From Antedon mediterranea (lineage: Eukaryota; Echinodermata; Crinoidea; Comatulida; Antedonidae): DNA of 64,000 nt. Within the stretch, counting starts at the first letter, position 1; each line of letters begins with the position of its first letter. The stretch covers positions 25,108,070 to 25,172,069 of the forward strand of contig NC_092671.1 in NCBI RefSeq assembly GCF_964355755.1, given 5' to 3'. Positions 1 through 24,490 of this stretch are shown one piece after another. The position numbers and the translations under genes were made by a program. Below the pieces are notes generated by a model. The model made no database searches, was not told the DNA's origin, and saw only the letters and a program-made list of their open reading frames with translations.

Positions 1-39
1 TTTCTATGGATTAAATCGACAATAAAACTATAAAATGAT

Positions 40-111
40 TGCGTCGGCCGGGAATCGAACCCGGGACAATTGCTTGGAAGGCAACTATGTTAACCACTAC
101 ACCACCGACGC
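40..111 (-). tRNA. tRNA-Gly (UCC)
   Basis: First complete unit of the window. It has the full consensus cloverleaf with anticodon UCC (reads GGA) and discriminator A. The downstream flank reads ATCATTTTATAG rather than the more common AACATTTTATAG. This flank variant recurs at 453, 2570 and 2983, marking the duplicated blocks. Confidence 0.9.
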
Positions 112-176
112 AGTTACAACAGTCGAGTTATGCTGTGTTTCTATGGAGCAAATCGACAATAAAATTATAAAATGTG

Positions 177-248
177 TGCGTTGGCGGGGAATCGAACCCG
201 GGACAATTGCTTGGAAGGCAACTATGTTAACCACTACACCACCAACGC
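177..248 (-). tRNA. tRNA-Gly (UCC) with changed but paired acceptor stem
   Basis: The acceptor is GCGTTGG/CCAACGC instead of GCGTCGG/CCGACGC: both sides of one base pair have changed, so pairing is kept. This is also the acceptor sequence of vertebrate tRNA-Gly(UCC). The T stem has one mismatch (position 64 is C). Similar units lie near 2157 and 2707. In later units such as 5976 and 17079 only one side has changed, which leaves a C-A mismatch. Confidence 0.75.
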
Positions 249-1266
249 AGGTACTATACAGTCGAGTTATGCTGTGTTTCTATCGATTATATTGACAATA
301 AAACTATAAAAATGTCTGTGTCGGCCGGGAATCGAACCAAGGCAACTGCTTGGAAGGCAACTATGTTAACCACTACACCACCAACGCACGTACTACAGTC
401 GAGTTATGCTGTGTTTCTATGGATTAAATCGACAAATAAACTATAAAATGATTGCGTCGGCCGGGAATCGAACCCGGGACAATTGCTTGGAAGGCAACTA
501 TGTTAACCACTACACCACCGACGCACGCATTATAATCGAGTTATGCTGTATTTCCATGGATCAAATCGACAATAAAACTATGCAATGTTTGCGTCGGCCG
601 GGAATCGAACCCTGGACAATTGCTTGGAAGGCAACTATGTTAACCACTACACCACCACCGACGCGCGTACTACAGTCGAGTTATGCTGTGTTTCTATGGA
701 TCAAATCGACAATAAAACTATAAATTGTTTGCCTCGGCCGGGAATCGAACCCGGGACAACTGCTTGGGAGGCAACTATGTTAACCACTACACCACATTAC
801 AATGGAGTTATTCTGTTTTTCTACAGATCACATTGACTAATAAACTTTGAAAACATTGCGTCGGCATGGAATTGAACCCGGGACAATTGCTTGGAACGCA
901 ACTATGTTAACCACTACACAACCGACGTCGTACTACAGTCGAGTTATGCTGTGTTTCTATGGATCAAATCGACAATAAAACTATAAAATGTTTGCGTCGG
1001 CCGGTAATCGAACCCGGGACAATTGCTTGGAAGGCAACTATGTTAACCACTACACCACCGACGAGCGTACTACAGTCGAGTTATGCTGTGTTTCTATGGA
1101 ACAAATCGACAATAAAACTATAAAATGTTTGCGTCGGCCGGGAATGGAACCCGGGACAATTGCTTGGAAGGCAACTATGTTAACCACTACACCACCGACG
1201 CGCGTACTACAGTCGAGTTATGCTGTGTTTCTATGGATCAAATCGACAATAAAACTATAAAATGTT

Positions 1267-1338
1267 TGCGTCGGCCGGGAATCGAACCCGGGACAATTGC
1301 TTGGAAGGCAACTATGTTAACCACTACACCACCGACGC
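1267..1338 (-). tRNA. tRNA-Gly (UCC)
   Basis: Consensus gene. Its neighbours show the range of damage in the array: the unit at 1130 has a T-loop change (TTCCATT), and the unit at 1404 has a 3-bp insertion at the T-stem/acceptor junction. Confidence 0.9.
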
Positions 1339-1745
1339 GCGTACTACAGTCGCGTTATGCTGTGTTTCTATGGATCAAATCGACAATAAAACTATAAAAT
1401 GTTTGCGTCGGCCGCCGGGAATCGAACCAGGGACAATTGCTTGGAAGGCAACTATGTTAACCACTACACCACCGACGCGCGTACTACAGTCGAGTTATGC
1501 TGTGTTTCTATGGATCAAATCGACAATAAAACTATAAAATATTTGCGTCGGCAGGGAATCGAACCCGGGACAATTGCTTGGAAGGCAACTATGTTAACCA
1601 CTACACCACATTACAATGGAGTTATTCTGTGTTTCTACAGATGTAGAAGGCAACTATGTTAACCACTACACCAACGACGCGTGTATTACAGTCGAGTTAT
1701 GCTGTGTTTCTATGGATGAAATCGACAATAAAACTATAAAATGTT

Positions 1746-1817
1746 TGCGTCGGCCGGGAATCGAACCCGGGACAATTGCTTGGAAGGCAACTATGTTAAC
1801 CACTACACCACCGACGC
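1746..1817 (-). tRNA. tRNA-Gly (UCC)
   Basis: Consensus gene, located just after a partial unit (about 1640-1680) that keeps only the 5' half of a tRNA gene. Confidence 0.9.
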
Positions 1818-4070
1818 GCGTACTACAGTCGAGTTATGCTGTGTTTCTATGGATCAAATCGACAATAAAACTATAAAATGTTTGCGTCGGCCGGGAATCG
1901 AACCCAGGACAACTGCTTGGAAGGCAACTATGTTAACCACTACACCACCGACGCACGTACTACAGTCGAGTTATGCTGTGTTTCTATGGATTAAATCGAC
2001 AATAAAACTATAAAATGTTTGCGTCGGCCGGGAATCGAACCCGGGACAATTGCTTGGAAGGCAACTATGTTAACCACTACACCACCGACGCAGTTACAAC
2101 AGTCGAGTTATGCTGTGTTTCTATGGAGCAAATCGACAATAAAATTATAAAATGTGTGCGTTGGCTGGGAATCGAACCCGGGACAATTGCTTGGAAGGCA
2201 ACTATGTTAACCACTACACCACCAACGCAGGTACTATACAGTCGAGTTATGCTGTGTTTCTATCGATTAAATTGACAATAAAACTATAAAAATGTCTGTG
2301 TCGGCCGGGAATCGAACCAAGGCAACTGCTTGGAAGGCAACTATGTTAACCACTACACCACCAACGCACGTACTACAGTCGAGTTATGCTGTGTTTCTAT
2401 GGATTAAATCGACAAATAAACTATAAAATGTTTGCGTCGGCCGGGAATCGAACCCGGGACAATTGCTTGGAAGGCAACTATGTTAACCACTACACCACCG
2501 ACGCACGTACTACAGTCGAGTTATGCTGTGTTTCTATGGATTAAATCGACAATAAAACTATAAAATGATTGCGTCGGCCGGGAATCGAACCCGGGACAAT
2601 TGCTTGGAAGGCAACTATGTTAACCACTACACCACCGACGCAGTTACAACAGTCGAGTTATGCTGTGTTTCTATGGAGCAAATCGACAATAAAATTATAA
2701 AATGTGTGCGTTGGCTGGGAATCGAACCCGGGACAATTGCTTGGAAGGCAACTATGTTAACCACTACACCACCAACGCAGGTACTATACAGTCGAGTTAT
2801 GCTGTGTTTCTATCGATTAAATTGACAATAAAACTATAAAAATGTCTGTGTCGGCCGGGAATCGAACCAAGGCAACTGCTTGGAAGGCAACTATGTTAAC
2901 CACTACACCACCAACGCACGTACTACAGTCGAGTTATGCTGTGTTTCTATGGATTAAATCGACAAATAAACTATAAAATGATTGCGTCGGCCGGGAATCG
3001 AACCCGGGACAATTGCTTGGAAGGCAACTATGTTAACCACTACACCACCGACGCACGCATTATAATCGAGTTATGCTGTATTTCCATGGATCAAATCGAC
3101 AATAAAACTATGCAATGTTTGCGTCGGCCGGGAATCGAACCCTGGACAATTGCTTGGAAGGCAACTATGTTAACCACTACACCACCACCGACGCGCGTAC
3201 TACAGTCGAGTTATGCTGTGTTTCTATGGATCAAATCGACAATAAAACTATAAATTGTTTGCCTCGGCCGGGAATCGAACCCGGGACAACTGCTTGGGAG
3301 GCAACTATGTTAACCACTACACCACATTACAATGGAGTTATTCTGTTTTTCTACAGATCACATTGACTAATAAACTTTGAAAACATTGCGTCGGCAAGGA
3401 ATTGAACCCGGGACAATTGCTTGGAACGCAACTATGTTAACCACTACACAACCGACGTCGTACTACAGTCGAGTTATGCTGTGTTTCTATGGATCAAATC
3501 GACAATAAAACTATAAAATGTTTGCGTCGGCCGGTAATCGAACCCGGGACAATTGCTTGGAAGGCAACTATGTTAACCACTACACCACCGACGAGCGTAC
3601 TACAGTCGAGTTATGCTGTGTTTCTATGGAACAAATCGACAATAAAACTATAAAATGTTTGCGTCGGCCGGGAATGGAACCCGGGACAATTGCTTGGAAG
3701 GCAACTATGTTAACCACTACACCACCGACGCGCGTACTACAGTCGAGTTATGCTGTGTTTCTATGGATCAAATCGACAATAAAACTATAAAATGTTTGCG
3801 TCGGCCGGGAATCGAACCCGGGACAATTGCTTGGAAGGCAACTATGTTAACCACTACACCACCGACGCGCGTACTACAGTCGAGTTATGCTGTGTTTCTA
3901 TGGATCAAATCGACAATAAAACTATAAAATTTTTGCGTCGGCCGTGAATCGAACCCGGGACAATTGCTTGGAAGGCAACTATGTTAACCACTACACCACC
4001 GACGCGCGAACTACAGTCGAGTTATGCTGTGTTTCTATGGATCAAATCGACAATAAAACTATAAAATGTT

Positions 4071-4142
4071 TGCGTCGGCCGGGAATCGAACCCGGGACAA
4101 TTGCTTGGAAGGCAACTATGTTAACCACTACACCACCGACGC
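4071..4142 (-). tRNA. tRNA-Gly (UCC), consensus unit
   Basis: All stems pair, with one G-U at 10-25 and one at 27-43. U8, A14, G18G19, A21, U33 and the TTC of the T arm are in place. The unit at 4208 is identical over the gene. Confidence 0.92.
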
Positions 4143-5016
4143 GCGAACTACAGTGGAGTTATGCTGTGTTTCTATGGATCAAATCGACAATAAAACTATA
4201 AAATGTTTGCGTCGGCCGGGAATCGAACCCGGGACAATTGCTTGGAAGGCAACTATGTTAACCACTACACCACCGACGCGCGAACTACAGTGGAGTTATG
4301 CTGTGTTTCTATGGATCAAATCGACAATAAAACTATAAATTGTTTGCGTCGGCCGGGAATCGAACCCGGGACAACTGCTTGGGAGGCAACTATGTTAACC
4401 ACTACACCACATTACAATGGAGTTATTCTGTGTTTCTACAGTTCACATTGACTAATAAACTTTGAAAACATTGCGTCGGCAAGGAATTGAACCCGGGACA
4501 ATTGCTTGGAACGCAACTATGTTAACCACTACACAACCGACGTCGTATACAGTCGAGTTATGCTGTGTTTCTATGGATCAAATCGACAATAAAACTATAA
4601 ATGTTTGCGTCGGCCGGTAATAGAACCCGGGACAATTGCTTGGAAGGAAACTATGTTAACCACTACACCACCGACGAGCGTACTACAGTCGAGTTATGCT
4701 GTGTTTCTATGGAACAAATCGACAATAAATCTATAAAATGTTTGCGTCAGCCGGGAATGGAACCCGGGAGAATTGCTTGGAAGGCAACTATGTTAACCAC
4801 TACACCACCGACGCGCGTACTACAGTCGAGTTATGCTGTGTTTCTATGGATCAAATCGATAATAAAACTATAAAATGTTTGCGTCGGCCGGGAATCGAAC
4901 CCGGGACAATTGCTTGGAAGGCAACTATGTTAACCACTACACCACCGACGCGCGTACTACAGTCGAGTTATGCTGTGTTTCTATGGATCAAATCGATAAT
5001 AAAACTATAAAATGTT

Positions 5017-5088
5017 TGCGTCGGCCGGGAATCGAACCCGGGACAATTGCTTGGAAGGCAACTATGTTAACCACTACACCACCGACGC
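5017..5088 (-). tRNA. tRNA-Gly (UCC)
   Basis: Consensus gene within a run of three (4880, 5017, 5154) that have identical genes and near-identical spacers, the pattern expected from recent unequal exchange. Confidence 0.9.
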
Positions 5089-5148
5089 GCGTACTACAGT
5101 CGAGTTATGCTGTGTTTCTATGGATCAAATCGACAATAAAACTATAAA

Positions 5149-8100
5149 ATGTTTGCGTCGGCCGGGAATCGAACCCGGGACAATTGCTTGGAAGGCAACT
5201 ATGTTAACCACTACACCACCGACGCGCGTACTACAGTCGAGTTATGCTGTGTTTCTATGGATCAAATCGACACTAAAACTATGCAATGTTTGCGTCGGCC
5301 GGGAATCGAACCCGGGACAAATGCTTGGAAGGCAACTATGTTAACCACTACACCACCGACGCGCGAACTACAGTGGAGTTATGCTGTATTTCTATGGATC
5401 AAATCGACAATAAAACTATAAAATGTTTGCGTCGACCGGTAATCGAACCCGGGACAAATGCTTGGAAGGCAACTATGTTAACCACTACACCACCGACGCG
5501 CGTACTACAGTCGAGTTATGCTGTGTTTCTATGGATCAAATCGACAATAAAACTATAAAATGTTTGCGTCGTACGGGAATCGAACCCGGGACAATTGCTT
5601 GGAAGGCAACTATGTTAACCACTACACCACCGACGCGCGTACTACAGTCGAGTTATGCTGTGTTTCTATGGATCAAATCGACACTAAAACTATGCAATGT
5701 TTGCGTCGGCCGGGAATCGAACCCGGGACAATTGCTTGGAAGGCAACTATGTTAACCACTACACCACCGACGCGCGAACTACAGTGGAGTTATGCTGTGT
5801 TTCTACAGATCAAATCGACAATAAAACTATAAATTGTTTGCGTCGGTCGGGAATCGAACCCGGGACAATTGCTTGGAAGGCAACTATGTTAACCACTACA
5901 CGACCGACGCAGGTACTACAGTCGAGTTATGCTGTGTTTCTATGGATCAAATCGACAATAAAATTATAAAATGTGTGCGTTGGCCGGGAATCGAATCCGG
6001 GACAATTGCTTGGAAGGCAACTATGTTAACCACTACACCACCGACGCGCGTACTACAGTCGAGTTATGCTGTGTTTCTATGGATCAAATCGACAATAAAA
6101 CTATAAAATGTCTGCGTCGGCCGGGAATCGAACCCGGGACAATTGCTTGGAAGTCAACTATGTTAACCACTACACCAACGACGCGTGTATTACAGTCGAG
6201 TTATGCTGTGATTCTATGGATCAAATCGACAATAAAACTATGCAATGTTTGCGTCGGCCGGGAATCGAACCCTGGAGAATTGCTTGGTAGGCAACTATGT
6301 TAACCACTACAGCACCGACGCACGCATTATAATCGGGTTATGCTGTATTTCCATGGATCAAATTGACAATAAAACTATAATATGTCTGCGTCGGACGGGA
6401 ATCGAACCCGGGACAATTGCTTGGAAGGCAACTATGTTAACCACTACACCACCGACGCGCGAACTACAGTCGAGTTATGCTGTGTTTCTATGGATCAAAT
6501 CGACACTAAAACTATGCAATGTTTGCGTCGGCCGGGAATCGAACCCGGGACAATTGCTTGGAAGGCAACTATGTTAACCACTACACCACCGACGCGCGAA
6601 CTACAGTGGAGTTATGCTGTGTTTCTACAGATCAAATCGACAATAAAACTATAAATTGTTTGCGTCGGTCGGGAATCGAACCCGGGACAATTGCTTGGAA
6701 GGCAACTATGTTAACCACTACACGACCGACGCAGGTACTACAGTCGAGTTATGCTGTGTTTCTCTGGATCAAATCGACAATAAAATTATAAAATGTGTGC
6801 GTTGGCCGGGAATCGAACCCTGGAGAATTGCTTGGTAGGCAACTATGTTAACCACTACAGCACCGACGCACGCATTATAATCGGGTTATGCTGTATTTCC
6901 ATGGATCAAATTGACAATAAAACTATAATATGTCTGCGTCGGACGGGAATCGAACCCGGGACAATTGCTTGGAAGGCAACTATGTTAACCACTACACCAC
7001 CGATGCGCGAACTACAGTCGAGTTATGCTGTGTTTCTATGGATCAAATCGACAATAAAACTATAAAATGTTTGCGTCGGCCGGGAATCGAACCCGGGACA
7101 ATTGCTTGGAAGGCAACTATGTTAACCACTACACCACCGACGCGCGTACTACAGTCGAGTTATGCTGTGTTTCTATGGATCAAATCGATAATAAAACTAT
7201 AAAATGTTTGCGTCGGCCGGGAATCGAACCCGGGACAATTGCTTGGAAGGCAACTATGTTAACCACTACACCACCGACGCGCGAACTACAGTGGAGTTAT
7301 GCTGTGTTTCTACAGATCAAATCGACAATAAAACTATAAATTGTTTGCGTCGGTCGGGAATCGAACCCGGGACAATTGCTTGGAAGGCAACTATGTTAAC
7401 CACTACACGACCGACGCAGGTACTACAGTCGAGTTATGCTGTGTTTCTCTGGATCAAATCGACAATAAAATTATAAAATGTGTGCGTTGGCCGGGAATCG
7501 AACCCTGGAGAATTGCTTGGTAGGCAACTATGTTAACCACTACAGCACCGACGCACGCATTATAATCGGGTTATGCTGTATTTCCATGGATCAAATTGAC
7601 AATAAAACTATAATATGTCTGCGTCGGACGGGAATCGAACCCGGGACAATTGCTTGGAAGGCAACTATGTTAACCACTACACCACCGATGCGCGAACTAC
7701 AGTCGAGTTATGCTGTGTTTCTATGGATCAAATCGACAATAAAACTATAAAATGTTTGCGTCGGCCGGGAATCGAACCCGGGACAATTGCTTGGAAGGCA
7801 ACTATGTTAACCACTACACCACCGACGCGCGTACTACAGTCGAGTTATGCTGTGTTTCTATGGATCAAATCGATGATAAAACTATAAAATGTTTGCGTCG
7901 GCCGGGAATCGAACCCGGGACAATTGCTTGGAAGGCAACTATGTTAACCACTACACCACCGACGCGCGTACTACAGTCGAGTTATGCTGTGTTTCTATGG
8001 ATCAAATCGACAATAAAACTATAAAATGTTTGCGTCGGCCGGGAATCGAACCCGGGACAATTGCTTGGAAGGCAACTATGTTAACCACTACACAACCGAC

Positions 8101-10350
8101 GCGCGTACTACAGTCGAGTTATGCTGTGTTTCTATGGATCAAATCGACACTAAAACTATGCAATGTTTGCGTCGGCCGGGAATCGAACCCGGGACAAATG
8201 CTTGGAAGGCAACTATGTTAACCACTACACCACCGACGCGCGAACTACAGTGGAGTTATGCTGTATTTCTATGGATCAAATCGACAATAAAACTATAAAA
8301 TGTTTGCGTCGACCGGTAATCGAACCCGGAACAATTGCTTGGAAGGCAACTATGTTAACCACTACACCACCGACGCGCGTACTACAGTCGAGTTATGCTG
8401 TGTTTCTATGGATCAAATCGACAATAAAACTATAAAATGTTTGCGTCGTACGGGAATCGAACCCGGGACAATTGCTTGGAAGGCAACTATGTTAACCACT
8501 ACACCACCGACGCGCGTACTACAGTCGAGTTATGCTGTGTTTCTATGGATGAAATCGACACTAAAACTATGCAATGTTTGCGTCGGCCGGGAATCGAACC
8601 CGGGACAATTGCTTGGAAGGCAACTATGTTAACCACTACACCACCGACGCGCGAACTACAGTGGAGTTATGCTGTGTTTCTACAGATCAAATCGACAATA
8701 AAACTATAAATTGTTTGCGTCGGTCGGGAATCGAACCCGGGACAATTGCTTGGAAGGCAACTATGTTAACCACTACACGACCGACGCAGGTACTACAGTC
8801 GAGTTATGCTGTGTTTCTATGGATCAAATCGACAATAAAATTATAAAATGTGTGCGTTGGCCGGGAATCGAATCCGGGACAATTGCTTGGAAGGCAACTA
8901 TGTTAACCACTACACCACCGACGCGCGTACTACAGTCGAGTTATGCTGTGTTTCTATGGATCAAATCGACAATAAAACTATAAAATGTCTGCGTCGGCCG
9001 GGAATCGAACCCGGGACAATTGCTTGGAAGTCAACTATGTTAACCACTACACCAACGACGCGTGTATTACAGTCGAGTTATGCTGTGATTCTATGGATCA
9101 AATCGACAATAAAACTATGCAATGTTTGCGTCGGCCGGGAATCGAACCCTGGAGAATTGCTTGGTAGGCAACTATGTTAACCACTACAGCACCGACGCAC
9201 GCATTATAATCGGGTTATGCTGTATTTCCATGGATCAAATTGACAATAAAACTATAATATGTCTGCGTCGGACGGGAATCGAACCCGGGACAATTGCTTG
9301 GAAGGCAACTATGTTAACCACTACACCACCGACGCGCGAACTACAGTCGAGTTATGCTGTGTTTCTATGGATCAAATCGACACTAAAACTATGCAATGTT
9401 TGCGTCGGCCGGGAATCGAACCCGGGACAATTGCTTGGAAGGCAACTATGTTAACCACTACACCACCGACGCGCGAACTACAGTGGAGTTATGCTGTGTT
9501 TCTACAGATCAAATCGACAATAAAACTATAAATTGTTTGCGTCGGTCGGGAATCGAACCCGGGACAATTGCTTGGAAGGCAACTATGTTAACCACTACAC
9601 GACCGACGCAGGTACTACAGTCGAGTTATGCTGTGTTTCTCTGGATCAAATCGACAATAAAATTATAAAATGTGTGCGTTGGCCGGGAATCGAACCCTGG
9701 AGAATTGCTTGGTAGGCAACTATGTTAACCACTACAGCACCGACGCACGCATTATAATCGGGTTATGCTGTATTTCCATGGATCAAATTGACAATAAAAC
9801 TATAATATGTCTGCGTCGGACGGGAATCGAACCCGGGACAATTGCTTGGAAGGCAACTATGTTAACCACTACACCACCGATGCGCGAACTACAGTCGAGT
9901 TATGCTGTGTTTCTATGGATCAAATCGACAATAAAACTATAAAATGTTTGCGTCGGCCGGGAATCGAACCCGGGACAATTGCTTGGAAGGCAACTATGTT
10001 AACCACTACACCACCGACGCGCGTACTACAGTCGAGTTATGCTGTGTTTCTATGGATCAAATCGATAATAAAACTATAAAATGTTTGCCTCGGCCGGGAA
10101 TCGAACCCGGGACAATTGCTTGGAAGGCAACTATGTTAACCACTACACCACCGACGCGCGTACTACAGTCGAGTTATGCTGTGTTTCTATGGATCAAATC
10201 GACAATAAAACTATAAAATGTTTGCGTCGGCCGGGAATCGAACCCGGGACAATTGCTTGGAAGGCAACTATGTTAACCACTACACCACCGACGCGCGTAC
10301 TACAGTCGAGTTATGCTGTGTTTCTATGGATCAAATCGACACTAAAACTA
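5149..10350 (-). repeat. Higher-order duplication with a period of 2,877 bp (21 units)
   Basis: Units from about 5012 recur 2,877 bp downstream with the same diagnostic variants (5286/8163, 5560/8437, 6108/8985, 6245/9122, 6930/9807). A smaller 685-bp (five-unit) duplication is nested within it (6519/7204, 6793/7478). Confidence 0.85.
6250..6321 (-). pseudogene. tRNA-Gly-like unit with anticodon ACC
   Basis: The anticodon loop reads CTACCAA, so position 34 is A and the anticodon is ACC. The same unit has G10 changed to C and a broken T stem (CAGGG), so it is probably not a working tRNA. At least seven units share these changes (6250, 6798, 7483, 9127, 9675, 10897, 12119), spread with the higher-order repeat. 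A34 tRNA-Gly genes are generally absent from eukaryotes. Confidence 0.75.
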
Positions 10351-12525
10351 TGCAATGTTTGCGTCGGCCGGGAATCGAACCCGGGACAAATGCTTGGAAG
10401 GCAACTATGTTAACCACTACACCACCGACGCGCGAACTACAGTGGAGTTATGCTGTATTTCTATGGATCAAATCGACAATAAAACTATAAAATGTTTGCG
10501 TCGACCGGGAATCGAACCCAGGACAACTGCCAGGGAGGCAACTATGTTAACAACTACACCACATTACAATGGAGTTATTCTGTGTTTCTACAGATCACAT
10601 TGACTAATAAACTTTGGAAACATTGCGTCGGCCAGGAATTGAACCCGGGACAATTGCTCGGAACGCAACTATGTTAACCACTACACAACCGACGTCGTAC
10701 TACAGTCGAGTTATGCTGTGTTTCTATGGATCAAATCGACAATAAAACTATAAAATGTTTGCGTCGGCCGGGAATCGAACCCGGGACAATTGCTTGGAAG
10801 TCAACTATGTTAACCACTACACCAACGACGCGTGTATTACAGTCGAGTTATTCTGTGTTTCTATGGATCAAATCGACAATAAAACTATGCAATGTTTGCG
10901 TCGGCCGGGAATCGAACCCTGGAGAATTGCTTGGTAGGCAACTATGTTAACCACTACAGCACCGACGCACGCATTATAATCGGGTTATGCTGTATTTCCA
11001 TGGATCAAATTGACAATAAAACTATAATTTGTCTGCGTCGGACGGGAATCGAACCCGGGACAATTGCTTGGAAGGCAACTATGTTAACCACTACACCACC
11101 GACGCGCGAACTACAGTCGAGTTATGCTGTGTTTCTATGGATCAAATCGACAATAAAACTATAAAATGTTTGCGTCGGCCGGGAATCGAACCCGGGACAA
11201 TTGCTTGGAAGGCAACTATGTTAACCACTACACCACCGACGCGCGTACTACAGTCGAGTTATGCTGTGTTTCTATGGATCAAATCGACAATAAAACTATA
11301 AAATGTTTGCGTCGGCCGGGAATCGAACCCGGGACAATTGCTTGGAAGGCAACTATGTTAACCACTACACCACCGACGCGCGTACTACAGTCGAGTTATG
11401 CTGTGTTTCTATGGATCAAATCGACAATAAAACTATAAAATGTTTGCGTCGGCCGGGAATCGAACCCGGGACAATTGCTTGGAAGGCAACTATGTTAACC
11501 ACTACACCACCGACGCGCGTACTACAGTCGAGTTATGCTGTGTTTCTATGGATCAAATCGACACTAAAACTATGCAATGTTTGCGTCGGCCGGGAATCGA
11601 ACCCGGGACAAATGCTTGGAAGGCAACTATGTTAACCACTACACCACCGACGCGCGAACTACAGTGGAGTTATGCTGTGTTTCTATGGATCAAATCGACA
11701 ATAAAACTATAAAATGTTTGCGTCGACCGGGAATCGAACCCAGGACAACTGCCAGGGAGGCAACTATGTTAACAACTACACCACATTACAATGGAGTTAT
11801 TCTGTGTTTCTACAGATCACATTGACTAATAAACTTTGGAAACATTGCGTCGGCCGGGAATTGAACCCGGGACAATTGCTCGGAATGCAACTATGTTAAC
11901 CACTACACAACCGACGTCGTACTACAGTCGAGTTATGCTGTGTTTCTATGGATCAAATCGACAATAAAACTATAAAATGTTTGCGTCGGCCGGGAATCGA
12001 ACCCGGGACAATTGCTTGGAAGTCAACTATGTTAACCACTACACCAACGACGCGTGTATAACAGTCGAGTTATGCTGTGTTTCTATGGATCAAATCGACA
12101 ATAAAACTATGCAATGTTTGCGTCGGCCGGGAATCGAACCCTGGAGAATTGCTTGGTAGGCAACTATGTTAACCACTACAGCACCGACGCACGCATTATA
12201 ATCGGGTTATGCTGTATTTCCATGGATCAAATTGACAATAAAACTATAATATGTCTGCGTCGGACGGGAATCGAACCCGGGACAATTGCTTGGAAGGCAA
12301 CTATGTTAACCACTACACCACCGACGCGCGAACTACAGTCGAGTTATGCTGTGTTTCTATGGATCAAATCGACAATAAAACTATAAAATGTTTGCGTCGG
12401 CCGGGAATCGAACCCGGGACAATTGCTTGGAAGGCAACTATGTTAACCTCTACACCACCGACGCGCGTACTACAGTCCAGTTATGCTGTGTTTCTATGGA
12501 TCAAATCGACAATAAAACTATAAAA
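10081..12525 (-). repeat. Higher-order duplication with a period of 1,222 bp
   Basis: Units at 10218, 10355, 10492, 10755, 10892 and 11029 match those at 11440, 11577, 11714, 11977, 12114 and 12251, including the rare CCC-anticodon unit (10492/11714). A 675-bp duplication follows (13073/13748 and 13248/13923). Confidence 0.85.
11171..11242 (-). tRNA. tRNA-Gly (UCC)
   Basis: First of three successive consensus units (11171, 11308, 11445) at the centre of the 1,222-bp higher-order duplication. Confidence 0.9.
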
Positions 12526-12666
12526 TGTTTGCGTCGACCGGGAATCGAACCCGGGACAATTGCTTGGAAGGCAACTATGTTAACCACTACACCACCGACG
12601 CACGTACTACAGTCGCGTTATGCTGTGTTTCTATGGATTAAATCGATAATAAAACTATAAAATGTT

Positions 12667-12738
12667 TGCGTCGGCCGGGAATCGAACCCATGACAACTGC
12701 TTGGGAGGCAACTATGTTAACCACTACAACACATTACA
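12667..12738 (-). pseudogene. tRNA-Gly-like unit with anticodon CCC
   Basis: The loop reads CTCCCAA, giving anticodon CCC with the stem still paired. The 5' acceptor strand has been replaced by spacer-like sequence (the CATTACAATGG junction), so the acceptor cannot form. Related units lie near 731, 3261, 4345 and 15380. Units near 10497 and 11719 also read CCC but have further loop changes. Confidence 0.7.
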
Positions 12739-13486
12739 ATGGAGTTATTCTGTGTTTCTACAGATCACATTGACTAATAAACTTTGAAAACATTGCGTCG
12801 GCCAGGAATTGAACCCGGGACAATTGCTTGGAACGCAACTATGTTAATAAATCCACTACACAACCGACGTCGTACTACAGTCGAGTTATGCTGTGTTTCT
12901 ATGGATCAAATCGACAATAAAACTATAAAATGTTTGCGTCGGCCGGTAATCGAACCCGGGGGACAATTATTTTCTTGGAAGGCAACTATGTTAACCACTA
13001 CACCACCGACGAGCGTACTACAGTCGAGTTATGCTGTGTTTCTATGGAACAAATCGACAATAAAACTATAAAATGTTTGCGTCGGACGGGAATCGAACCC
13101 GGGACAATTGCTTGGAAGGCAACTATGTTAACCACTACACCACCGACGCGCATACTACAGCCGAGTTATGCTGTGTTTCTATGGATCAAATCGACAATAA
13201 AACTATAAAATGTTTGCGTCGGCCGGGAATCGAACCGGGACAATTGCTTGGAAGGCAACTATGTTAACCACTACACCACCGACGCGCGAACTACAGTCGA
13301 GTTATGCTGTGTTTCTATGGATCAAATCGACAATAAAACTATAAAATGTTTACGTCGGCCGGGAATCGAACCCGGGACAACTGCTTGGAAGGCAACTATG
13401 TTAACCACTACACCACCGACGCACGTACTACAGTCGCGTTATGCTGTGTTTCTATGGATTAAATCGACAATAAAACTATAAAATGT

Positions 13487-13558
13487 TTGTGTCGCCCGGG
13501 AATCGAACCTAGGACAACTGCTTGGCAGGCAACTATGTTAACCACTACACCACATTAC
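13487..13558 (-). pseudogene. tRNA-Gly-like unit with anticodon GCC
   Basis: The loop reads CTGCCAA, giving anticodon GCC, the anticodon of the main eukaryotic tRNA-Gly. The acceptor is broken by the same CATTACAATGG junction as in the CCC units. A second GCC unit lies near 14711. Confidence 0.65.
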
Positions 13559-14299
13559 AATGGAGTTATTCTGTGTTTCTATAGATCACATTGACTAATA
13601 AACTTTGAAAACATTGGGTCGGCCGGGAATTGAACCCGGGACAATTGATTGAAACGCAACTATGTTAAAACCACTACACAACCGACGTCGTACTACAGTC
13701 GATTAATGCTGTGTTTCTATGGATCAAATCGACAATAAAACTATAAAATGTTTGCGTCGGCCGGGAATCGAACCCGGGACAATTGCTTGGAAGGCAACTA
13801 TGTTAACCACTACACCACCGACGCGCATACTACAGCCGAGTTATGCTGTGTTTCTATGGATCAAATCGACAATAAAACTATAAAATGTTTGCGTCGGCCG
13901 GGAATCGAACCGGGACAATTGCTTGGAAGGCAACTATGTTAACCACTACACCACCGACGCGCGAACTACAGTCGAGTTATGCTGTGTTTCTATGGATCAA
14001 ATCGACAATAAAACTATAAAATGTTTACGTCGGCCGGGAATCGAACCCGGGACAACTGCTTGGAAGGCAACTATGTTAACCACTACACCACCGACGCACG
14101 CATTATAATCGGGTTATGCTGTATTTCCATGGATCAAATTGACAATAAAACTATAATTTGTCTGCGTCGGACGGGAATCGAACCCGGGACAATTGCTTGG
14201 AAGGAGACTATGTTAACCACTACACCACCGACGCGCGAACTACAGTCGAGTTATGCTGTGTTTCTATGGATCAAATCGACAATAAAACTATAAAATGTT

Positions 14300-14371
14300 T
14301 GCGTCGGCCGGGAATCGAACCCGGGACAATTGCTTGGAAGGCAACTATGTTAACCACTACACCACCGACGC
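14300..14371 (-). tRNA. tRNA-Gly (UCC)
   Basis: Consensus gene, in a run with the units at 14437 and 14574. Confidence 0.9.
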
Positions 14372-15918
14372 GCGTACTACAGTCGAGTTATGCTGTGTTT
14401 CTATGGATCAAATCGACAATAAAACTGTAAAATGTTTGCGTCGGCCGGGAATCGAACCCGGGACAATTGCTTGGAAGGCAACTATGTTAACCACTACACC
14501 ACCGACGCGCATACTACAGCCGAGTTATGCTGTGTTTCTATGGATCAAATCGACAATAAAACTATAAAATGTTTGCGTCGGCCGGGAATCGAACCCGGGA
14601 CAATTGCTTGGAAGGCAACTATGTTAACCACTACACCACCGACGCGCGTACTACAGTCGAGTTATGCTGTGTTTCTATGGATCAAATCGACAATAAAACT
14701 ATAAAATGTTTGCCTCGGCAGAGAATCGAACCAGAGACAATTGCTTGGCAGGCAACTATGTTAACCACTACACCACATTACAATGGAGTTATTCTGTTTT
14801 TCTATAGATCACATTGACTAATAAACTTTGAAAACATTGGGTCGGCCGGGAATTGAACCCGGGACAATTGATTGAAACGCAACTAACCACTACACAACCG
14901 ACGTCGTACTACAGTCGAGTAATGCTGTGTTTCTATGGATCAAATCGACAATAAAACTATAAAATGTTTGCGTCGGCCGGAAATCGAACCCGGGACAATT
15001 GCTTGGAAGGCAACTATGTTAACCACTACACCACCGACGCGCCTACTACAGTCGAGTTATGCTGTGTTTCTATGGATCAAATCGACAATAAAACTATAAA
15101 ATGTTTGCGTCGGCCGGGAATCGCACCCGGGACAATTGCTTGGAAGGCAACTATGTTAACCACTACACCACCGACGCGCGTACTACAGTCGAGTTATGCT
15201 GTGTTTCTATGGATCAAATCGACAATAAAACTATAAAATGTTTGCGTCGGCCGGGAATCGAAGCCGGGAAAATTGCTTGGAAGGCAACTATGTTAACCAC
15301 TACACCACCGACGCGCGTACTACAGTCGCGTTATGCTGTGTTTCTATGGATTAAGTCGACAATAAAACTATAAAATGTTTGCGTCGGCCGGGAATCGAAC
15401 CCATGACAACTGCTTGGGAGGCAACTATGTTAACCACAACACCACATTACAATGGAGTTATTCTGTGTTTTTACAGATCACATTGACTAATAAACTTTGA
15501 AAACATTGCGTCGGCCAGGAATTGAACCCTGGACAATTGCTTGGAACGCAACTATGTTAAAACCACTACACAACCGACGTCGTACTACAGTCGAGTTATA
15601 CTGTGTTTCTATGGAAAAAATCGACAATAAAACTATAAAATGTTTGCGTCGGCCGGGAATCGAACCCGGGACAATTGCTTGGAAGGCAACTATGTTAACC
15701 ACTACACCACCGACGCGCCTACTACAGTCGAGTTATGCTGTGTTTCTATGGATCAAATCGACAATAAAACTATAAAATGTTTACGTCGGCCGGGAATCGA
15801 ACCCGGGACAATTGCTTGGAAGGCAACTATGTTAACCACTACACCACCGACGCGCGAACTACAGTCGAGTTATGCTGTGTTTCTATGGATCAAATCGACA
15901 ATAAAACTATAAAATGTT

Positions 15919-15990
15919 TGCGTCGGCCGGGAATCGAACCCGGGACAATTGCTTGGAAGGCAACTATGTTAACCACTACACCACCGACGC
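15919..15990 (-). tRNA. tRNA-Gly (UCC)
   Basis: One of the last consensus genes before the array decays. Toward 18,280 more units carry indels, for example a 6-bp insertion near 17605 in the spacer. Confidence 0.9.
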
Positions 15991-18324
15991 GCGTACTACA
16001 GTCGAGTTATGCTGTGTTTCTATGGATCAAATCGACAATAAAACTATAAAATGTTTGCCTCGGCAGGGAATCGAACCAGAGACAATTGCTTGGAAGGCAA
16101 CTATGTTAACCACTACACCACCGACGCGCGTACTACAGTCGAGTTATGCTGTGTTTCTATGGATCAAATTGACAATAAAACTATAAAATGTTTGCGTCGG
16201 CAGGGAATCGAACCCGGGACAATTGCTTGGAAGGCAACTATGTTAACCACTACACAACCGATGCCCGAACTACAGTCGAGTTATACTGTGTTTCTATGGA
16301 CCAAATCGACAATAAAACTATAAAATGTTTGCCTCGGCAGGGAATCGAACCCGGGACAATTGCTTGGAAGGCAACTATGTTAAACACTACACCACCGACG
16401 CGCGTACTACAGTCGAGTTATGCTGTGTTTCTATGGATCAAATCGACAATAAAACTATAAAATGTTTGCGTCGCCAGTGAATCGAACCCGGGATAATTGC
16501 TTGGAAGGCAACTATGTTAACCACTACACCACATTACAATGGAGTTATTCTGTGTTTCTACAGATGTAGAAGGCAACTATGTTAACCACTACACCAACGA
16601 CGCGTGTATTACAGTCGAGTTATGCTGTTTTTCTATAGATGAAATCGACAATAAAACTATAAAATGTTGGCGTCGGCCGGGAATCGAACACGGGACAATT
16701 GCTTGGAAGGCAACTATGTTAACCACTACACCACCGACGCGCGTACTACAGTCAAGTTATGCTGTGTTTCTATGGATGAAATCGACAATAAAACTAAAAA
16801 ATCTTTGCGTCGGCCGGGAATCGAACCCGGGACAATTGCTTGGAAGGCAACTATGTTAACCACTACACCACCGACGCGCGTACTACAGTCGAGTTATGCT
16901 GTGTTTCTATGGATCAAATCGACAATAAAACTATAAAATGTTTGCGTCGGCCGGGAATCGAACCGGGACAATTGCTTGGAAGGCAACTATGTTAACCACT
17001 ACACCACCGACGCAGGTACTACAGTCGAGTTATGCTGTGTTTCTATGGATCAAATCGACAATAAAATTATAAAATGTGTGCGTTGGCCGGGAATCGAACC
17101 CGGGACAATTGCTTGGAAGGCAACTATATTAACCACTACACCACCGACGCGCGTACTACAGTCGAGTTATGCTGTGTTTCTATGGATCAAATCCACAATA
17201 AAACTATAAAATGTTTGCGTCGGCCGGGAATCGAACCCGGGAGAATTGCTTGGAAGGCAACTATGTTAACCACTACACCACCGACGCGCGTACTACAGTC
17301 GAGTTATGCTGTGTTTCTATGGATCAAATCGACACTAAAACTATGCAATGTTTGCGTCGGCCGGGAATCGAACCCGGGACAATTGCTTGGAAGGCAACTA
17401 TGTTAACCACTACTCCACCGACGCGCGTACTACAGTCGAGTTATGCTGTGTTTCTATGGATCAAATCGACAATAAAACTATAAAATGTTTGCGTCGGCCT
17501 GGAATCGAACCCGGGACAATTGCTTGGAAGGCAACTATGTTAACCACTACACCACTGACGCGCGAACTACAGTCGAGTTATGCTGTGTTTCTATGGATCA
17601 AATCCGAATCGAAAATAAAACTATAAAATGTTTGCGTCGGCCGGTAATCGAACCCGGGACAATTGCTTGGAAGGCAACTATGTTAACCACTACACAACCG
17701 ACGCACGTACTACAGTCGCGTTATGCTGTTTTTCTATGGAACAAATCGACAATAAAACTATAAAATGTTTGCCTCGGCCGGGAATCGAACCCAGGACAAC
17801 TGCTTGGGATTCAACTATATTAACCACTACACCACATTACAATGGAGTTATTCTGTGTTTCTACAGATCACATTGACTAATAAACTTTGAAAACATTGCG
17901 TCGGCCAGGAATTGAACCCGGGACAATTGCTTGAAACGCAACTATGTTAATTAAACCACTACACAACCGACGTCGTACTACAGTCGAGTTATGCTGTGTT
18001 TCTATGGATCAAATCGACAATAAAACTATAAAATGTTTGCGTCGGCCGGTAATCGAGCCCGGGGGACAATTGCTTGGAAGGCAACTATGTTAACCACTAC
18101 ACCACCGACGAGCGTACTACAGTCGAGTTATGCTGTGTTTCTATGGATCAAATCGACAATAAAACTATAAAATGTTTGCGTCGGCAGGGAATCGAACCCG
18201 GGACAATTGCTGGGAAGGCAACTATGTTAACCACTACACCACCAACGCAGGTACTATAGTGGAGTTATGCTGTGTTTCTATAGATTTGATCCATAGAAAC
18301 ACAGTATAACTCGACTGTAGTACG

Positions 18325-18399
18325 ACGTCGGTTGTGTAGTGGTTAATTAACATAGTTGCGTTCCAAGCAATTGTCCCGGGTTCGATTCCGGCCGACGCA
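18325..18399 (+). pseudogene. tRNA-Gly-like copy, inverted relative to the array
   Basis: Plus-strand copy after the orientation switch. The anticodon is still UCC, but there are 4 extra bases in the D loop (GGTTAATTAACAT), a base missing from the T stem, and a mismatched first acceptor pair. It belongs to the degenerate subclass with G at position 32. Confidence 0.75.
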
Positions 18400-18467
18400 A
18401 ACATTTTATAGTTTTATTGTCGATTATTTGATCCGTAGAAACACAGCATAACTCCACTATAGTACCT

Positions 18468-18539
18468 GCGTTGATGGTGTAGTGGTTAACATAGTTGCCG
18501 TCCAAGCAATTGTCCCGTGTTCGATTCCCGGCCGACGCA
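18468..18539 (+). pseudogene. tRNA-Gly-like copy, U33 lost
   Basis: 72-nt plus-strand copy with anticodon UCC. The invariant U33 is G (loop CGTCCAA), the T stem has a mismatch (CCGTG), and the acceptor end reads GCGTTGA against CCGACGC. Probably non-functional. Confidence 0.75.
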
Positions 18540-18603
18540 AATATTTTACAGTTTATTGTCGATTTGGACCATGATAACACAACATAACTCCATCGTAATA
18601 CGT

Positions 18604-18939
18604 GTGTCGGTGGTGCGGTGGTTAACTATGTTGATTCACTAAGGTGATTTTATTTAATAAACTTTTACTATATTTTGTTTTGTATTCATTCGTGTAAAGT
18701 AATGATCTACTGTATGTTTTTTTTTTGGGGGGGGGGGGGGGGTGGGGGTGTATGATAGGGGTTGATAGTTGCCTTTGCCTTTTTACTTTTCTGTTAATTG
18801 TTATATTTTATATTGTTATTGTAAAGGATGCACCTTTGTGCTAAGTGTGCCACCGATCTAAAGGTGTAATTCCAAATAAATAAATAAATAAATGTTGCCT
18901 TCCAAGCAATTGTCCCGGGTTCGATTCCCGGCCGACGCA
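18604..18939 (+). pseudogene. tRNA-Gly copy split by a retroposon
   Basis: The 5' half (18604-18633) and the 3' part (18898-18939, anticodon UCC, intact T arm and acceptor strand, discriminator A) flank a 258-bp insert. The sequence ATGTTG is found on both sides of the insert (18628-18633 and 18892-18897), as expected for a target-site duplication. Removing the insert and one copy of ATGTTG restores a near-consensus tRNA. A further 5' fragment of a tRNA copy follows at about 18940-18972. Confidence 0.75.
18634..18891 (+). mobile_element. Short retroposon with an AAAT-repeat tail
   Basis: The insert ends in an (AAAT)n tail directly next to the duplicated ATGTTG, which fits target-primed reverse transcription. 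It includes a T-run followed by a long G-run near 18720-18750 and has no coding sequence. The family was not identified; it could be a SINE or the 3' end of a LINE. Confidence 0.65.
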
Positions 18940-19053
18940 GACGGTGTAGTGGTTAACATAGTTTCCTTCCATAGTTCGTCATAAACATCTTATGCCTAGT
19001 TATTGGTTAAAAGTTCCATACTTCTTTGACAATAGCAACGTTTTTTTTAATAG

Positions 19054-22000
19054 GATGTTCCCACAAACACACTTGTATCATTTCTGCGACCATTTGAAAC
19101 AGAATTATGGATACTGGTGTTCCTAGCTATACATGTAGTTGCCTTCTTTCTATTCATTTTGGATCGGCTTAGCCCCTTTAGCCGTATGCACACTGGTAGA
19201 TCTGGACAAGAGCAAGACGCATTGAATCTCTCACGAGCCCTTTGGTTTTCTTGGGGTGTGCTCTTTAATAGCGGGATTGGTGAAGGTAAGTTTTTTATTT
19301 TGCTCCTTCTACAAGAATTTTATTTTTTTCATTCAGCAAAAATATACGCTAAAATATTTAAATGTAATTGGTGATATCATTTCTTCCGTGTGCAATCAGG
19401 CAATACAACAAGCAATTTTAAAGATAACTTGAGACGTTTTATATTTTATTCTTTATATAGTATTTTAATATTTATACTGTTCATAATGTTTTATACATAG
19501 CATATTTTCTTATATATTATCTTATCCATTGTATAGTATTGTATGTTTTTAACTGTTGTTATTTTTATTGTAATTTGAACCTTGGAAGGCAAATTTCATT
19601 TACTTTGTATTTGACAATAAATTTTAACTTGAACTTGAACTTGAACTATATACCTATTTCTGGTATATCGACTTTCGCCTTTCCTTCTTTGACCATTGTG
19701 ATCGTTAAACAAAATCGCACACACTGTAAAATAGCCCTGTAAACAGTATAATAAATACAATAATTTTGTTTCTGTTACATTACAGTCAATATTTACATAT
19801 CATTACTATTTTTTTAGGAACACCACGTAGTCTGAGCGCACGCGTAGTGGGCATGGTGTGGGCCTTCTTTTCCATGATCATGCTGGCATCGTATACGGCT
19901 AATCTGGCAGCCTTTCTCGTACTAGAAAAGCCGGAGGGAAAGATATCAGGAATAAATGACGCACGGGTAAGTAGATCTATAGAAAGTACGATGTTGTTTT
20001 GCCTGTTTCTACTAGGAAACAATTAACGTTCTCGGTAATCTATCCGATATTGTTCCTCTAATGCTTGGCTCCCACTTAAGCGCAACGTAAGTAATTTGAC
20101 AAATTACAAGCGATAGAATATATATATATTATCCAAACCTGTCATTTTGTCAACTCGCTTACGTTGTGCTTACGTCTTCGCGTTGCGCCCGAGTGGGAAT
20201 CAACCCGTATTTGAACTACGGTACTAATCAGTTGATATAAGGTTTTAAGAATACTGTTTCATGACGTAGTCTAAATAATGTAATGGTCCATTGCTTACAT
20301 TAATTCTTAGATGCGTAATCCGTCCAACACGTTCAAGTTTGCCACAGTCAAAGGGAGCTCAGTGGACGCGTATTTTCGACGTCAGGTCGAACTCTCCACG
20401 ATGTATACTTTTATGACGAATTTCAATTATGTAAATGCTGATGAAGCAGTCGAGGCTGTAAGAAGTGGGTAAGATGGATAGTTAGAAACTAATTTCTTCT
20501 CTTCCTCCACTCTTTTTAAAAATAGCTATTTAATACAGATAATATTATAATCTTTGTTTTTTGACATGTGAGATCTGCTTCAATAAAATACGTAATGATC
20601 TATTTCTTTATATAGTGAACTAGATGCATTTATATGGGATTCAGCCATGCTAGACTACCAGACGTCTAGAGATTGTAACCTTGTTACAGTAGGAGAGTTA
20701 TTCGGTAAATCAGGGTTTGGTATAGGCTTACCAAAAGGTAGTCTGTGGACGCAAGAAGTATCTTTGGCAATTTTACATTTGCAAGAAGGAGGTGTGATGG
20801 AACAACTTGATTCACAATGGATTAGTTATCGAAATTGCCCAGTGGTGGACAATCAGCCAGCAACGCTGAATCTTGAAAATATGGGAGGTTGGTACGCCAA
20901 AGACATTTAACCAATACTAGGCCTAATTTTGTAAACCGTCATCTTACAGGCCTAAACAATTTTTACCAAATCAGAAAATACATTCAGCCTACTTGGGAAA
21001 TCAATTGACAAAAAAAACAGAACATCAGAACATTTAGGTTTGTTTTCTAATGAACGCCGCATTCTGTAAATTAATAATAATACTATTAATCTCATTTTCT
21101 ACATGAACACAGGAACGTTTTTACTGATTGGTTTTGCGGTATTTGGCGGCTTATTTATGATTGTTATAGAACGGAAATACAAAGAATACCACGACCGAAA
21201 GAAACAGCAAAAAGATCTTGCCGGCCAGGTTACCCTTAAATGGAAGGCACAATTGAAGGTGAGTTACTTTACTATTTAAAAGTAATATTTTTTTATTCAA
21301 CAACCATTTTGGTCAAAGACTGCTGCTGGTATGTTAATTACATTTTTAGAGTTGAATCCATAGAACATAATTCTAACGTTGAGTTAAAAATGCATGTTGC
21401 ACATTGCGTAGGCGTTACACTTTACTTACGTTTATCTTTCTTCACCAATGCGTACAAATTGGTCCTTAATTATTAAGGTCAAACCCCGGGTCAAATACGA
21501 TTATAAACACTGTTATAATTATTTTTGTAGAAACGACAAACAGACGACAAAAAACAGAAAGAGACACAGAACGAGTCGTGTTCAGAAGAGGAAGAACTTG
21601 CATTACTTGAAAAGGGTAAATTAAATAATGTTTAGTTTATATTTCCGGCAAAATAAAACACCTGTAGACTGTGCCGGCTCTAGCTCGCTTTTAAGTCGCG
21701 TGCGTGCAACGCGACTCTACAGCTCATTATGTCGGTCGGTCGGTAAACACTGAGCACTAGGGTCATAGAGAAGCAACGCAAGCGAGCTGACCAATCAGCG
21801 ACATTTCGAATGATCCATCGCTTGTGATTGTTCAAATCTTACTTACGTTGCGTTACGTCCTTGTGTTGCGTCTTTAGTTGTAACCAAGCATAATAGGCTA
21901 CTATCAAAGTTCTTTGCTACTATTAAGATGATATTTTACCGGGGACTAGCCCACGCCGGTTATTGACAGTTTACATCCTCATTTTCAAAAGAGGAGGTAA

Positions 22001-22417: not shown

Positions 22418-23330
22418 AATCTTGACCGCTAAAATGTTCGCTGATTCTGCACAATGTACTGTTCTGCACTCTTTACATTTGTGTTCTTTTTTAAAGTAAA
22501 CCTATTCATAGAAAATCTCAACCAGGAATATTTGGCTTTCGTTAAATACGTTAAAGGAAGCTGCTCTGAATTGAATACAAGGCTGTGAATGTTTTTACGA
22601 AGCAAGATGTTCCATGGCATAACTGGAAGATCATTTTGAAATTCATCTGTTTTTTGATTGATAATCAGTTTAAAAAAAAAATTATGGATCTATTATGCTA
22701 TTATTTCTATTATTGCTAAAATGTAGATAAGATATTATGTGTCATTCATAAAGATGTATCACCCCCGCACCCCCTCAGTTAAATTCAACCAAAAACTCAT
22801 TGGCTTGGCAGCCAATTTGACACTTTATTGCTTTAAATTACAATTTTTCAGGTAAATAATTTAGTTTTTTCGATCCAATTTTTGGGCAAAGTGAATAACT
22901 ATTGGAACAAAAATAGCATATTCAATTTTTCGGGGGACAATATATATTTAAGTATAAAGTTTAAACTTAAGACACCAATTTACACACGTAGTTAGGCCTA
23001 CCTCATTATCAATATTTCTACGATTTAATTATACGTACCAAAAAGAAATAAATCATATTATTATTATCTCTTATTTTTATGAACATTTGTGTCCAGCTGA
23101 CACTGAGGAGGTACGATTAAATACTTCTATATGATTTAAATAATAAACAACACTTTGTATTACTTTTAGATCAAATTAATTGCATTTTATCAGAACATTT
23201 GTTTGATCTAAATAGATGCACTAGTGTTAACGATAAACTGATCACACATTGAAAGTGTTATATAGATATAAAACGATCAAAATAATTGTATAATTACATA
23301 ATAATAAATGTGCTGTTAATTAAGATGAAA
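22418..23330. other. GluN1 3' UTR and intergenic DNA
   Basis: AT-rich, with no coding pattern and no recognised RNA. The start presumably contains the GluN1 3' UTR; no single polyadenylation site could be chosen. Confidence 0.5.
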
Positions 23331-24490
23331 ACGATTAGTTGGATACCTGGGAAGGAAGCGCCTCTCAATGGATCTATGTATGATGTATACGATTAGTTGG
23401 AAACCTGGGAAGGAAGCGCCTCTCAATGGATCTATGTATGATGTATACGATTAGTTGGATACCTGGGAAGGAAGCGCCTCTCAATGGATCTATGTATGAT
23501 GTATACGATTAGTTGGATACCTGGGAAGGAAGCGCCTCTCAATGGATCTATGTATGATGTATACGATTAGTTGGATACCTGGGAAGGAAGCGCCTCTCAA
23601 TGGATCTATGTATGATGTATACGATTAGTTGGATACCTGGGAAGGAAGCGCCTCTCAATGGATCTATGTATGATGTATACGATTACTTGAATACCTGGGA
23701 AGGAAGCGCCTCTCAATGGATCTATGTATGATGTATACGATTAGTTAGATACCTGGGAAGGAAACGCCTCTCAATGGATCTATGTATGATGTATACGATT
23801 AGTTGGATACCTGGGAAGGAAGCGCCTCTCAATGGATCTATGTATGATGTATACGATTAGTTGGATACCTGGGAAGGAAGCGCCTCTCAATGGATCTATG
23901 TATGATGTATACGATTAGTTAGATACCTGGGAAGGAAACGCCTCTCAATGGATCTATGTATGATGTATACGATTAGTTGGATACCTGGGAAGGAAGCGCC
24001 TCTCAATGGATCTATGTATGATGTATACGATTAGTTGGATACCTGGGAAGGAAGCGCCTCTCAATGGATCTATGTATGATGTATACGATTAGTTGGATAC
24101 CTGGGAAGGAAGCGCCTCTCAATGGATCTATGTATGATGTATACGATTAGTTGGATACATGGGAAGGAAGCGCCTCTCAATGGATCTATGTATGATGTAT
24201 ACGATTAGTTGGATACCTAGGAAGGAAGCGCCTCTCAATGGATCTATGTATGATGTATACGATTAGTTGGATACCTGGGAAGGAAGCGCCTCTCAATGGA
24301 TCTATGTATGATGTATACGATTAGTTGGATACATGGGAAGGAAGCGCCTCTCAATGGATCTATGTATGATGTATACGATTAGTTGGATACCTGGGAAGGA
24401 AGCGCCTCTCAATGGATCTATGTATGATGTATACGATTAGTTGGATACCTGGGAAGGAAGCGCCTCTCAATGGATCTATGTATGATGTAT
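23331..24490. repeat. 58-bp minisatellite, exactly 20 copies
   Basis: The unit starts ACGATTAGTTGGATACCTGG, contains GGAAGCGCCTCTCAATGG and ends GATCTATGTATGATGTAT. 1,160 bp divided by 58 gives 20 whole copies with only scattered single-base differences (for example ATACATGGG and TTACTTGAA variants). Such homogeneity points to recent expansion. Confidence 0.95.

Follow-up and report, generated by a model that had tools for sequence, protein, structure and literature searches.

A tandem array of tRNA-Gly(UCC) genes in the crinoid Antedon mediterranea with satellite-like block turnover and a shortage of common variants in the gene

We analysed a stretch of 64,000 nucleotides of Antedon mediterranea (RefSeq assembly GCF_964355755.1, contig NC_092671.1, C2:25108070-25172069; in the following "the window"), whose left part is a tandem array of tRNA-Gly(UCC) genes. 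The genome comprises 354,431,138 bases in 18 contigs, of which 11 are large (41.4 to 22.3 Mb) and 7 are small. Based on Tandem Repeats Finder (TRF), the 137-bp period spans positions 1-18285 of the window. An earlier reading of this DNA, made from the letters only (the sequence-only reading), had counted about 133 units of 137 bp, and our segmentation yields the same number of units with at least 115 bp, the leftmost being truncated by the window edge. In addition, there are two 75-bp units and one 31-bp stub (at 18255). Within the main array, the tRNA is oriented on the minus strand. The extent given earlier (1-18280) holds inside the window, but the array continues to the left and is accompanied by inverted blocks on both sides. 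The main block covers C2:25102356 to 25126354 (about 24.0 kb) and consists of 178 segments, among them four of 75 to 78 bp and one stub. To its left, an inverted block of about 15 units (C2:25096543-25098590) is separated from it by 3,765 bp of other DNA, where three of the open reading frames (ORFs) show no Pfam match over the cut-off. At the right end, about 2.2 inverted units stand head to head with the main array. Coordinates of individual features are collected in Table 1.

Two tRNA predictors agree with this picture. Of the 122 tRNAs that ARAGORN reports over the window, 121 are located on the minus strand. Rfam's cmscan finds 125 tRNA matches above the gathering score within positions 1-19100, of which 34 have the top score of 69.6 bits, 69 reach at least 60 bits and 98 at least 50 bits (the last two counted by hand). 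The exact 71-nt tRNA-Gly(UCC) gene occurs 34 times in the window, where at least 28 exact copies had been noted before.

For the frequency and structure tests reported below, we used an alignment from a separate segmentation of the main block with 173 rows; all figures on unit anatomy, identity and distinct sequences exclude the row of the 31-bp stub. The spacer of the Gly array is 65 nt long. In 171/173 main-array units, a run of four Ts (T4) is found within about 25 nt past the gene. We assessed the intactness of each unit based on six criteria, i.e., no indel, all 21 stem pairs, anticodon TCC, exact B box, T4, and discriminator A, which are jointly passed by 52/173 units. Taken one by one, 133 units are free of indels, 149 retain TCC and 60 keep all 21 stem pairs. 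The A box, which was scored apart from the six criteria, is exact in 137 units. Non-TCC anticodons include ACC (7 units), TTC (4) and CCC (10), where the latter units are 127 bp long and belong to a class without the first four gene nucleotides. The earlier description of the unit as a structurally intact gene of RNA polymerase III (Pol III) thus applies to a minority, i.e., the 52 units named above.

The 15 nt of lowest variability within the spacer are GAAACACAGCATAAC at positions -30 to -16 relative to the gene (permutation P=0.011). TFIIIB contacts known tRNA genes in this region, and we infer a putative TFIIIB contact at the block. We also considered an upstream motif common to the Phe array (see below) and the Gly array, i.e., ACACAGCAT, which is seen by eye in both 5' flanks. 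It was rejected given a hand estimate that places it within chance.

The array shows block turnover like satellites, i.e., tandem homogenised repeats combined with block duplication. The 173 aligned units comprise 122 distinct sequences. Stretches of at least three units in a row recur identically, with lags between 5 and 22 units. Among these, the longest run covers 10 units and recurs at lag 21, runs of 4 are found at lags 16 and 5, and further runs of 3 at lag 18 (twice) and lag 22. The distance between units has little effect on their mean identity, which is 0.904 to 0.914 for lags from 1 to 130 and 0.897 for lag 160 (recomputed lags). Compared to the consensus, every stretch of the block including its edges has an identity of 0.935 to 0.964. 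A seemingly most diverged right edge (0.893) was discarded, since one of the 174 rows was the 31-bp stub running into inverted DNA; the last eight units without this row show a value of 0.941, like the rest of the array. The diversity of the units speaks against an assembly artefact, i.e., a copy number or inverted edges produced by collapse or expansion. Given 122 distinct sequences, a window with zero N and similar arrays on other contigs, we regard such an artefact as next to negligible.

Genome-wide, the exact gene is found 49 times, that is, 42 times in the main block, twice in the left inverted block and five times dispersed (three on C1, one on C3, one on C11). All five dispersed genes agree with the array gene over 72 nt, while their flanks differ from the array spacer; the three C1 copies resemble each other. 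The T runs of the five genes are 5 to 11 long and begin 4 or 5 nt past the gene. Among the scored candidates, a match to the array spacer is confined to this locus. Since the dispersed genes are identical over the full 72 nt, the array consensus corresponds to a gene sequence kept elsewhere and has not drifted. Counting copies elsewhere, as proposed in the sequence-only reading, thus gives 5 dispersed exact genes compared to 44 at the locus. Five dispersed copies that have the gene but not the array spacer in common with the units are also what one would expect if the gene part were restored by gene conversion from these copies rather than by selection. We consider this very improbable: conversion would leave the differences between arrays described below unexplained, and 72 bp is short for ectopic conversion.

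The Gly array is not the only one in this genome. We found at least the arrays of Lys-UUU, Cys, Lys-CUU, Phe, Ile and Leu in the examined stretches as well as His by pattern hits only, where the list is a lower bound drawn from the first 100 places of each pattern search. Across the seven aligned arrays, spacers range from 65 to 115 nt. The earlier statement that such arrays are unusual in animals is therefore only partly right, also because arrays have been reported from Hydractinia and Nematostella. The Lys-UUU region additionally has a sparse part with five Lys-like genes (C8:23.582-23.592 Mb), a stretch not used in the tests. Among the 51 units of the Leu array, the anticodons are AAG (27), TAG (21), AGG (2) and CAG (1). 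With AGG, a leucine tRNA body carries the anticodon of proline, and these two units might misread, if used. For the Cys-GCA array, the consensus spacer (C2:14175000-14184999) contains no T4 run, which fits a decayed array; its units may be without a Pol III terminator.

Table 1. Positions of the Gly(UCC) array features (window coordinates) and of further tRNA arrays (contig coordinates).
Feature	Position	Strand	Remarks
Main array within the window	1..18285	-	133 units (115 bp or longer) with a 137-bp period, extends left to C2:25102356
Unit matching the consensus across all 137 bp	3738..3874	-	
tRNA-Gly(UCC) gene of unit 3738..3874	3797..3868	-	72 nt including discriminator A, 69.6 bits
Upstream block GAAACACAGCATAAC, -30 to -16 of gene 3797..3868	3884..3898	-	permutation P=0.011
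First T4 run 3' of gene 3797..3868	3789..3792	-	candidate Pol III terminator
Second T4 run 3' of gene 3797..3868	3781..3784	-	3/4 positions nearly invariant among units
10-unit block, copy 1	5780..7149	-	end estimated via unit length; recurs 21 units on
10-unit block, copy 2	8657..10026	-	end estimated via unit length
Unit with anticodon ACC	6225..6361	-	one of 7 such units
Inverted right-edge units, junction with main array	18283..18592	+	18284-18592 by TRF, about 2.2 copies
Detached rearranged unit fragment	18894..18971	+	
Lys-UUU array	C8, dense at 23.640-23.650 and 23.660-23.670 Mb		period about 176 bp
Cys-GCA array	C2 from 14.175 Mb		period 137 bp
Lys-CUU array	C3, 8.10 Mb		period 146 bp
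Phe array	C1, 17.61 Mb		period 188 bp; second run near 18.35 Mb
Ile array	C1, 41.05 Mb		period 154 bp
Leu array	C3, 11.56 Mb (C3:11558000-11567999)		period 169 to 189 bp
His array	C1, 11.50 Mb		pattern hits at 242-bp step only

The variant-frequency, structure and CpG tests cover six arrays (Gly-UCC, Phe, Leu, Lys-UUU, Cys, Ile), i.e., the aligned ones besides Lys-CUU with its 13 units; for arrays other than Gly, stretches of 9 to 20 kb from each were used. In the Gly array, raw substitutions per site and unit are lower in the gene (0.032) than in the spacer (0.058; permutation P=0.004). Splitting the variants by frequency allows for a separation of mutational input from the fate of the variants. 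Here, we used the non-CpG variants of the 121 distinct units at 57 gene and 58 spacer sites. Singletons are found 28 times in the gene and 23 times in the spacer, while common variants (present in at least 6/121 units) number 6 in the gene compared to 29 in the spacer (binomial P=7e-5). For thresholds from 3 to 10, the shortage of common gene variants has P values between 7e-5 and 0.004; threshold 2 gives P=0.095. When units with less than 92% identity are removed (92/121 kept), thresholds 2 to 4 yield a significant shortage (P 0.041 to 5e-4). The full sets of Phe and Leu share it (P=8e-4 and 0.007, respectively, at threshold 3), and for Phe it persists after the same filter at thresholds 3 to 10. 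The sequence-only reading had named variants equally frequent in gene and spacer as the mark of a mere satellite. We observe this for rare variants but not for common ones. Taken together, we think that the locus is probably a genuine tRNA gene array with the turnover of a satellite, in which weak selection retains some copies in an intact state.

A number of results weigh against this interpretation. First, the gene has no fewer variant types per site than the spacer (1.19 vs. 1.17). Second, the shortage is not uniform: for the filtered Gly set, thresholds 6, 8 and 10 are non-significant (with small counts), Leu becomes weak after filtering (P 0.044 to 0.29), and the full sets of Lys-UUU, Cys and Ile show no shortage of gene variants. 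After filtering, isolated thresholds give low P values for Lys-UUU (P=0.001, threshold 4) and Cys (P=0.014, threshold 2), and all P values are uncorrected for six arrays and several thresholds. Third, 121/173 units fail at least one of the six intactness criteria and the exact gene is present in only 42/173 aligned units. Fourth, common gene variants would be expected to be mild under structural constraint, which had to be rejected: stem-breaking changes make up 9/17 of the common and 30/65 of the rarer Gly variants, given a random share of 0.48, and common variants are significantly less disruptive in none of the six arrays. Accordingly, the average number of broken pairs per mutated gene (1.231) is close to that of random placement (1.246, sd 0.100). 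Finally, the shortage could predate the array, if the founder units came from separate selected genes. Structure-blind mutation along with few intact units implies that selection, if acting, has the pool as its target rather than the single unit.

The structurally random mutations, common variants included, are also what a silent tRNA-derived satellite would show, i.e., an array founded by a tRNA gene that is now heterochromatic and makes no tRNA while the dispersed genes do the work. The anticodons ACC (7) and TTC (4) among the 173 units fit it as well, and so do the duplicated blocks and a relative of DNMT1 encoded in the genome. Furthermore, zebrafish tRNA clusters were found to have near-complete CpG methylation and a copy number without correlation to the tRNA level (PMC11574265). 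At first look, the CpG sites of the gene pointed in the same direction, since they appeared about 3 times as variable, with 53 to 61% C>T or G>A compared to 19 to 26% elsewhere. This comparison was confounded because non-CpG sites include A and T. Restricted to C/G sites, the transition ratio is 1.8 for Gly and lies between 0.8 and 3.2 for the remaining five arrays. The excess of CpG transitions is thereby modest and does not reach significance for pooled variant types (P=0.15). We thus dropped CpG methylation decay as evidence of silencing, and the modest excess counts against a silent satellite. The same holds for the CpG observed/expected ratio, which is 1.37 in the array compared to 0.76 in window 19000-64000, and for the 3/6 arrays whose common variants are scarcer in the gene compared to the spacer. 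We consider a silent satellite possible but rather unlikely.

The opposite extreme is a high-dosage supply, in which transcription would include most units and the array would persist because some tissue or the egg requires tRNA-Gly(UCC) in large amounts. The locus holds 44/49 exact genes, nearly all units (171/173) provide T4 past the gene and the upstream block is conserved, all of which such a supply would explain. It is nevertheless improbable given that 121/173 units are not intact by at least one criterion, that mutations are not structure-aware, and that the dispersed exact genes carry the longer T runs (5 to 11). Moreover, parallel arrays of unrelated isoacceptors speak against a demand specific for Gly. 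With respect to the earlier alternative of dosage or satellite, the array thus has features of both: blocks are duplicated and mutations are structurally random, yet a shortage of common gene variants is seen in 3/6 arrays.

For a genuine gene array under weak selection, which we favour, the following scenario is the most likely one. A tRNA-Gly(UCC) gene would have been amplified head to tail, where the unit would be a self-contained Pol III gene of about nucleosome size. Copy number would change by duplication and loss of multi-unit blocks, be it via unequal exchange or a break-induced process. New mutations would fall equally on gene and spacer such that many copies decay, while weak selection at the level of the array would stop broken genes from taking over, and roughly 50 intact copies would thereby persist. 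Intact units would be transcribed in part, perhaps at some stages only, and most units would be silent.

More speculatively, and with clear doubt on our side, many isoacceptors might each have a satellite-like array as a store, where a gene is found about once per nucleosome length. Some arrays (Gly-UCC, Phe, Leu) could be in a maintained state, in which the spread of broken genes is prevented, while others (Lys-UUU, Cys, Ile) would be in a released state without this restraint. If true, tRNA arrays would be a reserve that switches between use and decay over evolution and that is partly available at particular stages, e.g., in the egg or early embryo. Whether an array is a supply or a tolerated repeat is a general question for giant tRNA arrays. 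Since unit-specific variants are natural barcodes and the arrays seem to differ in constraint, this question is testable by sequencing alone.

Beyond the array, the window contains further tandem repeats, i.e., a 58-bp minisatellite at 23324-24491 (about 20 copies, 98% matches), a 43-bp minisatellite at 48061-49106 (about 24 copies, 97% matches, several frames open), a 22-bp repeat with 14.5 copies at 46784-47103 and an 82-bp repeat with 5 copies at 57735-58143. Among 57 scanned ORFs, two match a ligand-gated ion channel domain and another matches the TFIID_NTD2 domain. A WD40 exon at 54885-55190 has TAF5 chains among its many matches to WD40 proteins, and judged by these matches it is probably part of TFIID subunit 5 (TAF5). 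Searches for the GFP and COX1 families yielded no match, which is not informative. Close by, a reverse transcriptase fragment is located at 55448-56709 (RVT_1 within 55843-56709); an ORF overlapping it has no Pfam match.

Short interspersed nuclear elements (SINEs) derived from tRNAs are tRNA-like repetitive elements, too. The array differs from them, since an intact tRNA gene is repeated head to tail at a single locus and the scored candidates include no dispersed copies with a shared non-tRNA body. The genome also contains at least four dispersed tRNA-like families, i.e., Ser/Leu-like, Arg-like, Val-like and of TAGCTCAGTCGTCTGAGC type, which are probably SINEs. For the Ser/Leu-tRNA-like element, the first 100 of 760 matches include 32 near-identical copies within about 680 kb (C2:21.28-21.96 Mb), 27 of them on the plus strand, and are dispersed outside this region.

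Among known systems, the tandem tRNA arrays reported in Hydractinia and Nematostella (PMC11067881) are similar in that an animal genome holds tens to hundreds of similar tandem tRNA copies and several amino acids are arrayed. Their authors call the significance of the Hydractinia arrays unclear without functional data. The spacers here (65 to 115 nt in seven arrays; His hits step by 242 bp) are much shorter than those of Hydractinia, where U1, U2, U5, U6 and U3 are arrayed as well (PMC11067881). For U6, we find at least 14 clustered and dispersed hits in the Antedon genome and no long array; a small cluster of U6 genes or fragments is located at C9:21.741-21.756 Mb. In Entamoeba, most tRNA genes are in long tandem arrays of 25 types, but their units combine 1 to 5 tRNA types with intergenic short tandem repeats (PMC2652664), whereas we observe one tRNA gene per unit. 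The SYY and tRNA-Cys clusters of Arabidopsis likewise combine tRNA genes of major and minor variants with pseudogenes (PMC12308677, PMC10701932). Besides being from a plant, they differ in their units, which are multi-gene for SYY and about 0.4 kb for Cys; in most tissues, the SYY cluster is silent and carries methylation (PMC12308677). Zebrafish offers the likeness of very large animal tRNA clusters (chromosomes 4, 8 and 3), with 5,227 genes on chromosome 4 and CpG methylation measured (PMC11574265). In our searches of the open-licence PubMed Central (PMC) literature, we found no account of this array nor of comparably short spacers in tRNA arrays of animals. The Antedon array thus joins the known tRNA arrays as a case with a short unit, in a genome whose arrays seem to be constrained to different degrees.

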